44,923 nucleotides of DNA from positions 1-44,923 of the IMG/VR virus record IMGVR_UViG_3300008111_000288; one strand, written 5' to 3'. The stretch is from a virus. The translations under genes were made by a program, and so were the position numbers. Below are positions 24,061 through 42,321 of this stretch, in pieces (position 1 is the stretch's first letter; the number at the start of each line of letters is the position of its first letter). Under the pieces are notes generated by a model that was not told where the DNA came from, did no database searches, and saw only the letters and a list, made by a program, of their open reading frames with translations.

Positions 24061-24076
24061 TGTGAGAAACCTCACA
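24061..24076 (+). promoter_or_regulatory. Crp/GlxR site, perfect
   Basis: TGTGA-GAAACC-TCACA. Centre 57.5 bp before the -10 at 24126; the one site out of the 10-bp phase. Confidence 0.7.
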
Positions 24077-24108
24077 AAAGCTGCGACACGCCGTAAATGG
24101 ATTAGGTA

Positions 24109-24131
24109 ATGTCGGTGGCCTATGCTAAAAT
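24109..24131 (+). promoter_or_regulatory. Early promoter P7
   Basis: ATGTCGGTG; ATGTCG, 11 nt, TAAAAT. Confidence 0.6.
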
Positions 24132-24159
24132 ACTCTCATCCAACAACGAAAGGTAAGTT

Positions 24160-24384
24160 ATGTCTAATCTAATGAAAGTTCCACACACAGTTGTATTCGA
24201 GGCCATTATTGACTTGGATAAAATTCCTGCAAACTTATTGCCACAATTAATTGCACTTGATAAAAGTTCAATTGAGCAAATGTGCAAAGAAGCAACACTA
24301 CACGCTCTCCACGAGTCTAATGTATTACAAACTGCAAATGAAAACAACACTTGGGCAGAAGTAACAATTAAGGAGAATAACTAA
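24160..24384 (+). CDS. Hypothetical early protein
   Basis: 74 aa, helical middle (LPQLIALDKSSIEQMC). AAAGG leader. TAATG overlap with the next gene. Function unknown. Confidence 0.6.
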   Translation: MSNLMKVPHTVVFEAIIDLDKIPANLLPQLIALDKSSIEQMCKEATLHALHESNVLQTANENNTWAEVTIKENN

Positions 24385-25852: not shown

Positions 25853-25875
25853 ATGTCAGTGCCACCTGTTATAAT
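25853..25875 (+). promoter_or_regulatory. Early promoter P10
   Basis: ATGTCAGTG; ATGTCA, 11 nt, TATAAT. Confidence 0.75.
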
Positions 25876-25906
25876 TGCACAATCAACCAATCGAAAGGAT
25901 AAATCT

Positions 25907-26911
25907 ATGGCTCATAACCTAGAAACAAATGGCAATGAAGTTGCCTTTGCTTTGCGTGGAAAACCCGCTTGGCATAATCTCGCAAATCGCATCTTTAATC
26001 AAGATGAAGATGTAACTACTCAAACAATGCTTGAAGAAGCAAAACTAGCGAATTGGAATGTTCGCTTGTCTCCACTAACTGACCACATTTCAGAATCTTG
26101 GAATGATGTTTCAGATGCTCACCTTGTGCTACGCACAAATCCATTTAATCAGGAAACTGATGTTCTAGCAACTGTGGGCAAGCGCTATAAGCCTGTTCAG
26201 AATGAAGAACTATTTGCTTTTGCTGATGCAATTCACGATGCCAATGCTGATTGCCGTTGGGAATCTGCTGGCTCACTAAAAAAGGGTAAAGTTGTTTTCG
26301 GCACTGTCGATATTCCCCGCACAATGGTATTAGACCCACAAGGCGCTAATGACCAAACAAAACTTTATCTTATTGTATGGACATCACACGATGGCTCTGT
26401 TGCTGTTCAAGCAGCGGTTACACCTGTTCGTGTTGTATGCCAAAATACTTTGAATCTTGCTATGCGTAATGCTAAGCAATCATTCAAAATTCGTCATACT
26501 CAATCTGTTGAAGGACGAATTCAAGTTGCTCGTGAAACTCTAGGGCTTGCTCTAGGTTACTTTGATGAATTTGAAAAGGAAGCGCAAGAACTCTTTAAGC
26601 AAGAGATTACTAACGCAGAATTTTCTAAGTTGATTCAAACAATTTACCCTAAGCCTGAAAAGGATTCTAAGGGTGCGCTAAAGAAGTGGGAAAATAAAGT
26701 TGTCTTGCTTGATGACCTTTATCATAACTCACCAACTAACGCCACAATTAAAGGAACTAAGTGGGGCGCATTTAACGCTCTAACTGAACGCCTTGATTAC
26801 TACCGCTCTGGTCGTGGTAATTCAGAATCACTAATGGCTGGTGCAAGTGGTTTTGACCCTGTTCTAACTGCTGAGAAAAATAAAATTCTCAAGTTGGTAA
26901 AAGCGTTTTAA
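25907..26911 (+). CDS. DUF932/TIGR03299-type phage-plasmid protein
   Basis: 334 aa from the ATG at 25907 after CGAAAGGA; an earlier in-frame ATG at 25853 is the promoter box. The order GKPAWHNLANRI, ATVGKRYKPVQNEELFAFAD, and VRVVCQNTLNLAMRNAK matches the DUF932 family ('phage/plasmid-like protein'), common in actinophage early regions. Full length. Biochemical role unknown. Followed by two tRNA genes. Confidence 0.8.
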   Translation: MAHNLETNGNEVAFALRGKPAWHNLANRIFNQDEDVTTQTMLEEAKLANWNVRLSPLTDHISESWNDVSDAHLVLRTNPFNQETDVLATVGKRYKPVQNEELFAFADAIHDANADCRWESAGSLKKGKVVFGTVDIPRTMVLDPQGANDQTKLYLIVWTSHDGSVAVQAAVTPVRVVCQNTLNLAMRNAKQSFKIRHTQSVEGRIQVARETLGLALGYFDEFEKEAQELFKQEITNAEFSKLIQTIYPKPEKDSKGALKKWENKVVLLDDLYHNSPTNATIKGTKWGAFNALTERLDYYRSGRGNSESLMAGASGFDPVLTAEKNKILKLVKAF

Positions 26912-27105: not shown

Positions 27106-27133
27106 CGGCCCGCAAATGTGAAGGCGGAACTTT

Positions 27134-27149
27134 TGTGTTACGAATCACA
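27134..27149 (+). promoter_or_regulatory. Crp-like site, one mismatch
   Basis: TGTGTTACGAATCACA. Centre 51.5 bp before the -10 at 27193. TTACGA lies within it. Confidence 0.55.
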
Positions 27150-27175
27150 TAAAAAAGCTCCTGAAATGCTTGTAA

Positions 27176-27198
27176 ATGTCAGTGAGGCCTGGTACAAT
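27176..27198 (+). promoter_or_regulatory. Early promoter P11 (leaderless)
   Basis: ATGTCAGTG; ATGTCA, 11 nt, TACAAT, then 6 nt to the ATG at 27205. Confidence 0.7.
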
Positions 27199-27204
27199 TC
27201 TTCC

Positions 27205-27849
27205 ATGACCAACGAACTCATATCAAGTAAGTACACATTTGTCTGCGATCCAGATGAATGCGATTCTTTAATTGAATTAACATCATCTGACGGATTTGGA
27301 TTCCCGTCAGGTGTGACAGAACTCACATGCCCGTGTGGTCGTAAAACTACATTATTGTCAGTGGAGCATGCTACACTACAACCTACACAAACGAAAGAGG
27401 AGCAAATGGAAACAACAATAACAACCGTCCCTGAGTCATATAACTCTAATCTATTAGTAACCTATAAGGTTATTCGTGGATATTCGGATGCAGAATATGC
27501 AACTGATAAAGTTGCTAGCATTGAGTGGGACCTACACAATGGACGTCAGGCACAAAAGCGTGTTGGAGTATTTGAATCCAACATTAATACAGTTAAAGAT
27601 ATTATTACTGAAGCGTATGCAGATTCAGAGGACCAAGATACTCTTCGTGCAATTGCTGAAGCGCTTAACATTGAATTAACTAGAACAATTGAATTCACCG
27701 CAACTATTGAAGTTAGTGGAACAATTGACCTAAACATCCTTGAAGACTATGATTTCGAAACAGAAATCACAGACAATCTTTTCGTTGATTCACAAAGTGG
27801 CAACATTGAGATTGGCGATACTGAAATCTGTTATGTGAGGGAAGCATAA
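27205..27849 (+). CDS. Two-part early protein with nested internal gene
   Basis: 214 aa from the leaderless ATG at 27205. Residues 1-67 form a zinc ribbon (FVCDPDECDS, then LTCPCGRK). An in-frame ATG at 27406, with GAGG before it and its own P12 promoter, begins a second domain (METTITTVPES onward, 147 aa) that is acidic and repeat-like (IELTRTIEFTATIEVSGTID). Both forms are likely made. No family recognised for the C-terminal part. Confidence 0.6.
   Translation: MTNELISSKYTFVCDPDECDSLIELTSSDGFGFPSGVTELTCPCGRKTTLLSVEHATLQPTQTKEEQMETTITTVPESYNSNLLVTYKVIRGYSDAEYATDKVASIEWDLHNGRQAQKRVGVFESNINTVKDIITEAYADSEDQDTLRAIAEALNIELTRTIEFTATIEVSGTIDLNILEDYDFETEITDNLFVDSQSGNIEIGDTEICYVREA
27312..27327 (+). 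promoter_or_regulatory. Crp/GlxR site, perfect, inside a coding region
   Basis: TGTGACAGAACTCACA. Centre 52.5 bp before the -10 at 27372. Confidence 0.65.
27355..27377 (+). promoter_or_regulatory. Early promoter P12, internal
   Basis: TTGTCAGTG; TTGTCA, 11 nt, TACACT; drives the internal start at 27406. Confidence 0.65.
27406..27849 (+). CDS. Internal-start product of the two-part gene
   Basis: 147 aa, same frame as the longer product. CGAAAGAGG lies about 8 nt upstream and the P12 transcript begins about 22 nt before. It would give the C-terminal domain without the zinc ribbon. Confidence 0.55.
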   Translation: METTITTVPESYNSNLLVTYKVIRGYSDAEYATDKVASIEWDLHNGRQAQKRVGVFESNINTVKDIITEAYADSEDQDTLRAIAEALNIELTRTIEFTATIEVSGTIDLNILEDYDFETEITDNLFVDSQSGNIEIGDTEICYVREA

Positions 27850-28061
27850 TGTATTTTGAGTTAACTGCTCCTGATAGGCTCTCCATGGAGAGGGCCTATT
27901 GGGATGCACAAATTATGGGTCTGGACCCAGAGGCAATGGACCCATTGACATTCAATATTGGAACTGGTAGTATTGAGAAAGTAAGTCGGATAAGAGATAA
28001 GTTTAATTTAACCGAAACTTATTTTTCAGAATACGAACCGACAGGATACACGAGGAGATAG
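27849..28061 (+). CDS. Hypothetical early protein
   Basis: 70 aa. TAATG overlap with the preceding gene. Contains SMERAYWDAQIMGLDPEAMD. Unknown. Confidence 0.55.
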   Translation: MYFELTAPDRLSMERAYWDAQIMGLDPEAMDPLTFNIGTGSIEKVSRIRDKFNLTETYFSEYEPTGYTRR

Positions 28062-29078: not shown

Positions 29079-29852
29079 ATGCCAAATTGGGTATATAACA
29101 CTTTGACCATACAAGGTCCAAAGTCAGAAATTGATTATATCAAGGATAGACTTAATAGTCCATTCACTTTAGCACAAGAGACTTATGGTATGGGTGATAT
29201 TAATGCTCATGGGTTCCCCACCAAAATTAAAGAAGTAACTTATTCTAATCCTGTCTTTGCTTTCTTCAACATTCATTCATATAAGGATGACGGCATTACT
29301 GATGAGGAATATGCCTGCCAGCCTGACCGTGGTGGTATTGACATGAAAGACCCTGATTGGTTCCGCAAGTCTGTTGAGTTTGCTAAAACTCAGAAAGATT
29401 GGTATTCATGGAATAACTCTAACTGGGGAACTAAATGGGATGTTGCTGTATCAGATGATGACCAATATCCAAACACAGAACTAATTGAATATAAATCAGA
29501 AGGTGATGACAACTGGCTTGTATATAAGTATGAGACTGCTTGGTCACCTGCTGTAACTATCTTAACTAAACTAAGTAATCTTGTTCCTAACTGCCTGCTC
29601 ACATTAGAGTATGAGGAGGAAACAGGTTGGGGTGGTGAATATGAGATTGTCCGTGGTGATGTTAAAGAAATTCTAGATTACGAGAATCGCTGCTATGCTT
29701 GCCAATCTTTTAATACATTGGACTATTGTGAAGATGACTGCGGAGAATTTTGCTCAGAATGTAACCAAGGTTCTTGGCAAGATGAAGAGGCTATGGCAAA
29801 ATGTCAGACCCACATGGTATTATTGGAATCTAGAGAAAAGGCGGATGTATGA
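29079..29852 (+). CDS. Api92-like (DUF1281) phage protein
   Basis: 257 aa. MPNWVYNTLTIQGPKSEIDYI is the usual start of the Api92-like family; the WxSCWGTKWD-type centre is present as NSNWGTKWD, followed by YETAWSPAV. It adds a Cys-rich C-terminus (CYACQSF, CEDDCGEFCSEC) that may bind zinc. Function unknown. AACGAAAGGA leader from P13. Confidence 0.7.
   Translation: MPNWVYNTLTIQGPKSEIDYIKDRLNSPFTLAQETYGMGDINAHGFPTKIKEVTYSNPVFAFFNIHSYKDDGITDEEYACQPDRGGIDMKDPDWFRKSVEFAKTQKDWYSWNNSNWGTKWDVAVSDDDQYPNTELIEYKSEGDDNWLVYKYETAWSPAVTILTKLSNLVPNCLLTLEYEEETGWGGEYEIVRGDVKEILDYENRCYACQSFNTLDYCEDDCGEFCSECNQGSWQDEEAMAKCQTHMVLLESREKADV
29801..29823 (+). promoter_or_regulatory. Early promoter P13b, inside a coding region
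   Basis: ATGTCAGAC; ATGTCA, 11 nt, TATTAT, 25 nt before the ATG at 29849. Confidence 0.45.
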
Positions 29853-41734: not shown

Positions 41735-42020
41735 TTGGCACTCCTTCAAGTTCACATCTTACTCCATATGATTCTATTACTTTCTTTACTTTAGTAACAT
41801 AATCAATAACCATTTCTTTTTTTATTCCTTCAAATTGAAGAAAATTATCTTCATAAAGCCTTAATGCTAAAAAATCTGGGTATTTTGCTATATCTAACAA
41901 TAACATTTGAGGCTTTTGTATTTGACGTATAGCCTTTTTCATTTCTTCAGTATAAAAAACAGGTTTGTTTGGCTCACCGTTCCAATGATTTATGCCATAT
42001 TTAAAATGATCATTTGCCAT
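41718..42020 (-). CDS. Hypothetical protein
   Basis: 100 aa, helical C-terminal part. Overlaps the end of whiB by 11 nt. Unknown. Confidence 0.55.
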   Translation of the reverse strand: MANDHFKYGINHWNGEPNKPVFYTEEMKKAIRQIQKPQMLLLDIAKYPDFLALRLYEDNFLQFEGIKKEMVIDYVTKVKKVIESYGVRCELEGVPSANIL

Positions 42021-42321
42021 GTTTATCTTTTATTCTCTTCCAGACTTCTTTTGTTTTATGTACATTTCTAGATTTATCTACAGACCCTGAATTTAAATAA
42101 ACTCCGCCCCATATACCATGTTCATTATTTTTAACTCCAGTTTCATAACAAATTTTTATTACTGGACAACCCAAACAAGCTTCATCTATACTTTTTGCAA
42201 CATTAACGTCTACTTCATATTTATCATAAAATAAATTTGTATCCATACCACGGCATAAAGCTAAATGAAACCATTGAAAATCGTTTCTATCTATACCAAG
42301 CTTATCTAAAATATTTGACAT
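42010..42321 (-). CDS. whiB: WhiB-family transcription regulator
   Basis: 103 aa. [4Fe-4S] cysteines Cys23, Cys49, Cys52 and Cys58 (CLGCPVIKIC), then GIWGG (69-73) and a basic C-terminus (RIKDKHGK). All hallmarks of WhiB-like proteins, which work with the sigma factor in Actinobacteria. It strongly marks an actinobacterial host, and phage WhiB proteins are known to affect host regulation. Confidence 0.85.
   Translation of the reverse strand: MSNILDKLGIDRNDFQWFHLALCRGMDTNLFYDKYEVDVNVAKSIDEACLGCPVIKICYETGVKNNEHGIWGGVYLNSGSVDKSRNVHKTKEVWKRIKDKHGK

Follow-up and report, generated by a model that had tools for sequence, protein, structure and literature searches.

Pairs of proteins encoded in one reading frame and sharing a C-terminus have been described in several settings. 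In Shigella, a promoter inside the virF gene is reported to give rise to the mRNA of the short form, VirF21, which is leaderless, and the short form in turn represses virF (PMC5101355). RepR, the replication initiator of plasmid pIGRK, is accompanied by an in-frame, N-terminally truncated RepR', and both proteins are reported to dimerise and to play opposing roles (PMC6854812). Among phage genes, the endolysins CTP1L (PMC4777826) and LysIME-EF1 (PMC7098653) each yield two products from a single frame, and CTP1L is described as forming complexes with its own N-terminally truncated product (PMC4777826).

The locus considered here belongs to a virus (IMG/VR record IMGVR_UViG_3300008111_000288), the whole record of 44,923 nucleotides (37.6% GC) being referred to as the window. 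The frame runs from an ATG at 27205, which is internal to the longest mechanical ORF (27118-27849), and the features discussed below are as follows.

27134..27149, plus strand: Crp-like site TGTGTTACGAATCACA, differing from TGTGAN6TCACA at one position; it precedes the long-form TGTCAG by 43 bp
27177..27198, plus strand: long-form promoter, TGTCAG-N7-TGG-TACAAT, its -10 ending 6 nt before ATG 27205
27205..27849, plus strand: long form, 214 aa, open frame, with predicted transcription start at or beside its own ATG (leaderless)
27205..27405, plus strand: N-terminal Cys-rich ribbon-like module (C14, C19, C42, C44) and linker, in the long form only
27312..27327, plus strand: Crp site TGTGACAGAACTCACA, a perfect palindrome within the coding sequence, 44 bp upstream of the internal TGTCAG
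27356..27377, plus strand: internal promoter, TGTCAG-N7-TGC-TACACT, with extended -10 TGCTACACT
27393..27402, plus strand: Shine-Dalgarno (SD) GAAAGAGGAG in the short-form leader, which is also coding; precedes ATG 27406
27406..27849, plus strand: short form, 147 aa, in the same frame as the long form and without the ribbon module; ribbon-less counterparts occur in distant relatives
27849..28061, plus strand: next gene, its start overlapping the long- and short-form stop (TAATG)

Like VirF30/VirF21, the phage locus has a single frame that would give two proteins sharing their C-terminus, and a gene-internal promoter; on the other hand, it is the short form that is leaderless in Shigella and the long form that would be so here, the phage short form being SD-led and its internal promoter having a Crp site (PMC5101355). 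RepR/RepR' can be likened to it by description, since one locus there gives a full-length protein and, in the same frame, an N-terminally truncated one, but it concerns a replication initiator and is not reported to have a Crp input or to have originated by fusion through a promoter (PMC6854812). In CTP1L and LysIME-EF1 the shorter protein is a secondary translation product, and a second promoter with an activator site is not reported for them (PMC4777826, PMC7098653). With regard to control, the phage promoters resemble class I Crp/GlxR promoters in having TGTGAN6TCACA upstream of the core at mostly helical distances (34, 44, 54, 64); they differ in that the phage core contains TGTCAG between the -35 and -10 positions together with an extended -10, that one phage set is off this spacing (48-49 bp), and that the Crp site here lies in coding DNA. 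A literature search of partial coverage returned no account of the nested locus, and none of promoters driven by Crp in phages of this kind. In-frame nested genes with an internal promoter are a known kind; the conservation, the Crp wiring and the module shuffling set this locus apart.

The explanation that we consider probable is that one locus with two promoters and one frame yields two proteins, that it originated by fusion, and that the host provides Crp. The long form (ribbon-like module plus body) would be transcribed from 27177 as a leaderless mRNA, and the short form (body only) from the internal extended -10 promoter at 27356, with a transcription start expected near 27384 and SD-led translation from its ATG. 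The Crp site would act at a class-I-like distance upstream of the internal promoter, Crp being supplied by the host (GlxR-type in Actinobacteria). Such an arrangement may have arisen from a small ribbon gene placed ahead of the body gene: once the ribbon gene had lost its stop, the Crp site, promoter and leader of the body gene would have turned into coding sequence. The sequences themselves show the signals, their conservation and a conserved open frame; judging from these, both promoters are expected to fire, Crp to activate, and both proteins to be made; the next gene would be co-transcribed from both promoters.

The frame from 27205 to 27849 with its internal SD-led ATG, and the perfect Crp site at 27312 inside the coding sequence, are as an earlier, sequence-only reading of this DNA had given them. 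The internal TGTCAG promoter is also present within the coding sequence, one base away from the position assigned to it (27356 instead of 27355). The promoter at 27177 and the one-mismatch Crp-like site at 27134 had been missed. These additional elements bear on the proposal that the two proteins are under separate control: two promoters there are, but both are of the TGTCAG/extended -10 type, and the long-form promoter usually has a Crp-like site as well. It is therefore probable that the same regulators act on both promoters and that what distinguishes these is strength and leader type. In this window, the Crp match is perfect at the internal promoter and has one mismatch at the long-form promoter.

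Relatives were obtained from a scan of viral contigs, which gave 243 related stretches, and 87 distinct long ORFs were drawn from the best 80 of these 243 together with two further scans, the number of loci kept being limited to 80 per scan. The relatives are kin and come partly from recurring contigs, so that the counts are not independent; with this understood, the internal TGTCAG-N10-TAnnnT is kept in 86 of the 87, and a Crp site (0-1 mismatch) stands exactly 44 bp upstream of the internal TGTCAG in 78 of 87. One relative, L077, has TGTCAT in place of TGTCAG. The internal Crp site is absent from eight distant relatives with other ribbon types, so Crp input is not essential to the nested arrangement. 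Within the alignment of long forms, the internal Met is invariant (61/61), as are C14, C19 and C44, and C42 is found in 56 of 61. The stretch between the -10 and the internal ATG varies in length among relatives, and the fusion is always in frame. In L105 and L118, for instance, the promoter is encoded in another codon phase and a leader of 29 nt instead of 3n+1 results in one open frame again. The frame is open for at least 45 codons upstream of the SD-led start at only 2 of 210 other promoters of the TGTCAG class, and one of those two, L140, is itself a member of the nested-gene family. Together with the suppression of synonymous change considered below, these comparisons lend strong support to the earlier suggestion of two related proteins.

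The same comparisons bear on a different, unlikely explanation, in which the long protein alone matters, the internal ATG is incidental, and the internal promoter serves the downstream genes from 27849 onward. This phage does have other internal promoters, at 29802 and 30393, that are placed close to the 3' end of the gene upstream, and the next gene begins at the very stop of ORF 27205-27849. The internal promoter, however, is situated away from the 3' end, approximately 28 nt ahead of the SD-led ATG 27406; the leader between them is of the ACGAAAGG type found in front of other genes in the same phage; and the downstream-gene explanation fits poorly with an invariant internal Met and with relatives in which the body is a separate gene, in some cases with a Crp-like site and promoter of its own.

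A TGTCAG promoter precedes the long ATG in 81 of 87 relatives, and in all 81 a gap of 6 or 7 nt separates the end of its -10 from the ATG; in most relatives a Crp-like site with one or two mismatches accompanies it, at 43-45 or 53 bp. Because the -10 in the window ends only 6 nt before ATG 27205, transcription would start at or beside the start codon, and the long-form mRNA is probably leaderless. Six relatives (L100, L108, L122, L125, L126 and L123) are without this promoter: the distant relatives L100, L108 and L122 have a purine-rich, SD-like stretch ahead of the long ATG, in L125 and L126 a -10 that lacks TGTCAG lies close to that ATG, and in L123 no obvious signal was found there. Neither a stop codon nor a frameshift occurs in any of the 51 distinct sequences of the first scan. 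An assembly error or a lost stop was rejected, given that a second contig (L001) encodes a protein of 100% identity and that all 51 sequences are free of stops.

It is accordingly very unlikely that the short protein alone is made and that the ribbon stretch upstream of it is a remnant, untranslated or in decay, whose frame is open by chance. The canonical leader on the short gene and the loss of one Cys in some ribbon types could be taken in that sense, but a remnant would not be expected to remain free of stops and frameshifts across the first scan, to show a ribbon dN/dS of 0.05, or to be preceded by so precisely placed a leaderless promoter (81/87), with an SD-like stretch before the long ATG in L100, L108 and L122.

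Selection on the DNA can be separated from selection on the protein. For the commonest ribbon type (61 distinct sequences), the synonymous diversity relative to expectation averages 0.07 at the ten motif codons and 0.63 at the other 40 codons of the module, a drop of about tenfold (Mann-Whitney p = 1.4e-5), and the proportion of synonymous differences in codons 51-57 is 0.04, down from about 0.5. At codons 51, 54 and 55 the amino acids vary (L/V, E/V and H/N/T, respectively) while the motif bases are fixed. The dN/dS ratio is 0.05 in the ribbon outside the motifs and 0.17 in the body, and dS collapses at the promoter. From the constancy of the motif bases and the low dN/dS of ribbon and body it follows that selection preserves these bases as a signal and the frame around them as protein. 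That the motifs are chance matches imposed by conserved protein sequence is scarcely credible, even though both fall within conserved segments (GVTELT and LSVEHAT), because motif codons are almost devoid of synonymous diversity when the average elsewhere is much higher, amino acids vary where the DNA motif is free and bases are constant where it is fixed, the same promoter is encoded by other ribbon types and in another codon phase, and the same elements precede other genes with mostly helical spacing.

The abundance of these signals in the window points in the same direction. There are 6 perfect Crp palindromes (0.07 expected), 17 TGTCAG-N10-TAnnnT sites, all on the plus strand (0.53 expected), and 4 Crp-plus-TGTCAG units (0 expected); neither signal is a chance match in the window. 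The 17 promoters lie between 20076 and 31894 in a regulon-like array, mostly with an extended -10 and several with upstream Crp sites at mostly helical spacing. At 24061-24180, TGTCGG-N10-TAAAAT, which departs from the promoter at a single base, stands about 50 bp after a Crp palindrome. Across the fetched loci, Crp-to-TGTCAG distances are mostly 34-35, 43-44, 53-54 and 62-65 bp, a helical series in which the counts include many relatives of the same genes, and one set at 48-49 bp (31 contexts) is off the series.

A cyclic-nucleotide-binding protein (Crp) was found in none of 16 related phage records, and a phage-encoded Crp was rejected as the regulator on this ground. A WhiB protein is present in 16 of 16 of these records, and among 14 control genomes only C. 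glutamicum matched; within the window, 42010-42321 on the minus strand encodes a WhiB-like protein by sequence pattern (C, CxxC, GIWGG). WhiB is an actinobacterial protein family, and the phage family probably infects actinobacteria. The absence of Crp from the 16 records and the presence of WhiB in all of them make a host Crp/GlxR the likely regulator, and it is presumably this protein that regulates the internal promoter. With its many sites at mostly helical spacing, the phage group appears to be wired to a Crp-type regulator of its host. Of the 16 related phage records, 8 encode a small protein of about 50 aa that resembles sigma region 4 (L224-L226), with matches that fall below the family cut-off. 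Candidates for binding TGTCAG are a host sigma factor, the WhiB-like phage protein and this small protein.

The long-form protein has no match of note in Pfam, PHROG, PDB sequences or GenBank phages, and a fold comparison of its predicted structure returned no match with E <= 0.001. The zinc ribbon ascribed to the long form is plausible from the C-x4-C ... C-x-C pattern of its ribbon-like module; it is unproven: the window protein has no significant match to a Zn-ribbon profile, a few relatives have weak ones, and the fold predicted for that region is of low confidence. The body is predicted to consist of a hairpin and a 35-residue helix (mean pLDDT 75, pTM 0.35), and linker residues 56-67, whose codons contain the promoter -10 and the leader, have a pLDDT under 50. 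By analogy with VirF30/21 and RepR/RepR', one may speculate that the body forms multimers and that the short form, for want of a ribbon, would tune its longer counterpart through mixed complexes, an idea that the pTM of 0.35 and the lack of a structural relative leave weak.

Both parts of the long form are also found apart. The body occurs without a ribbon in the distant relatives L124, L129, L130, L133, L134 and L139, and in L129, L130, L134 and L139 a one-mismatch Crp-like site lies 69-71 bp before the -10, about one helical turn more than the 60 bp of the nested form. Conversely, L227:685-918 is a stand-alone ribbon gene followed by a stop and another SD-led ATG. Its contig is binned as Chitinophagaceae and is probably a phage contig; this ribbon gene is the single match of a scan of genomes, and it is uninformative on the host. 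In 27 of 80 loci the ribbon is attached, by way of the same promoter linker, to a body of a second kind, and the first body is found with several types of ribbon. The simplest reading of these sequences is that a Cys-rich ribbon gene was fused in frame to the body gene across the latter's regulatory region, with later exchange of modules at that point. More tentatively, and with the balance somewhat against it, the arrangement could be a conserved gene-fusion device, in which interchangeable ribbons and bodies are joined by a live regulatory region that serves as linker, so that a locus always gives both fused and unfused forms and the cAMP-Crp state of the host determines how much of the unfused form is made. 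Those in-frame nested genes with promoters of their own for which we found descriptions are single cases. In these phages, more than 200 contig stretches encode relatives and the modules also occur apart, so that a beginning in fusion across a promoter, and a constraint acting on both DNA signal and protein, can be read from sequence.

Several other features accompany the promoters of this phage. The DnaA-box-like TTATCCACA occurs seven times in the control-rich region (21238, 21291, 24019, 24050, 25779, 32278 and 32290), and CGACACGCC is repeated in both orientations between 21196 and 24084. At 25853-25908, the mechanical start of a DUF932 ORF falls inside its own promoter (ATGTCAG), and an SD-led start lies further in, at MAHNLE.
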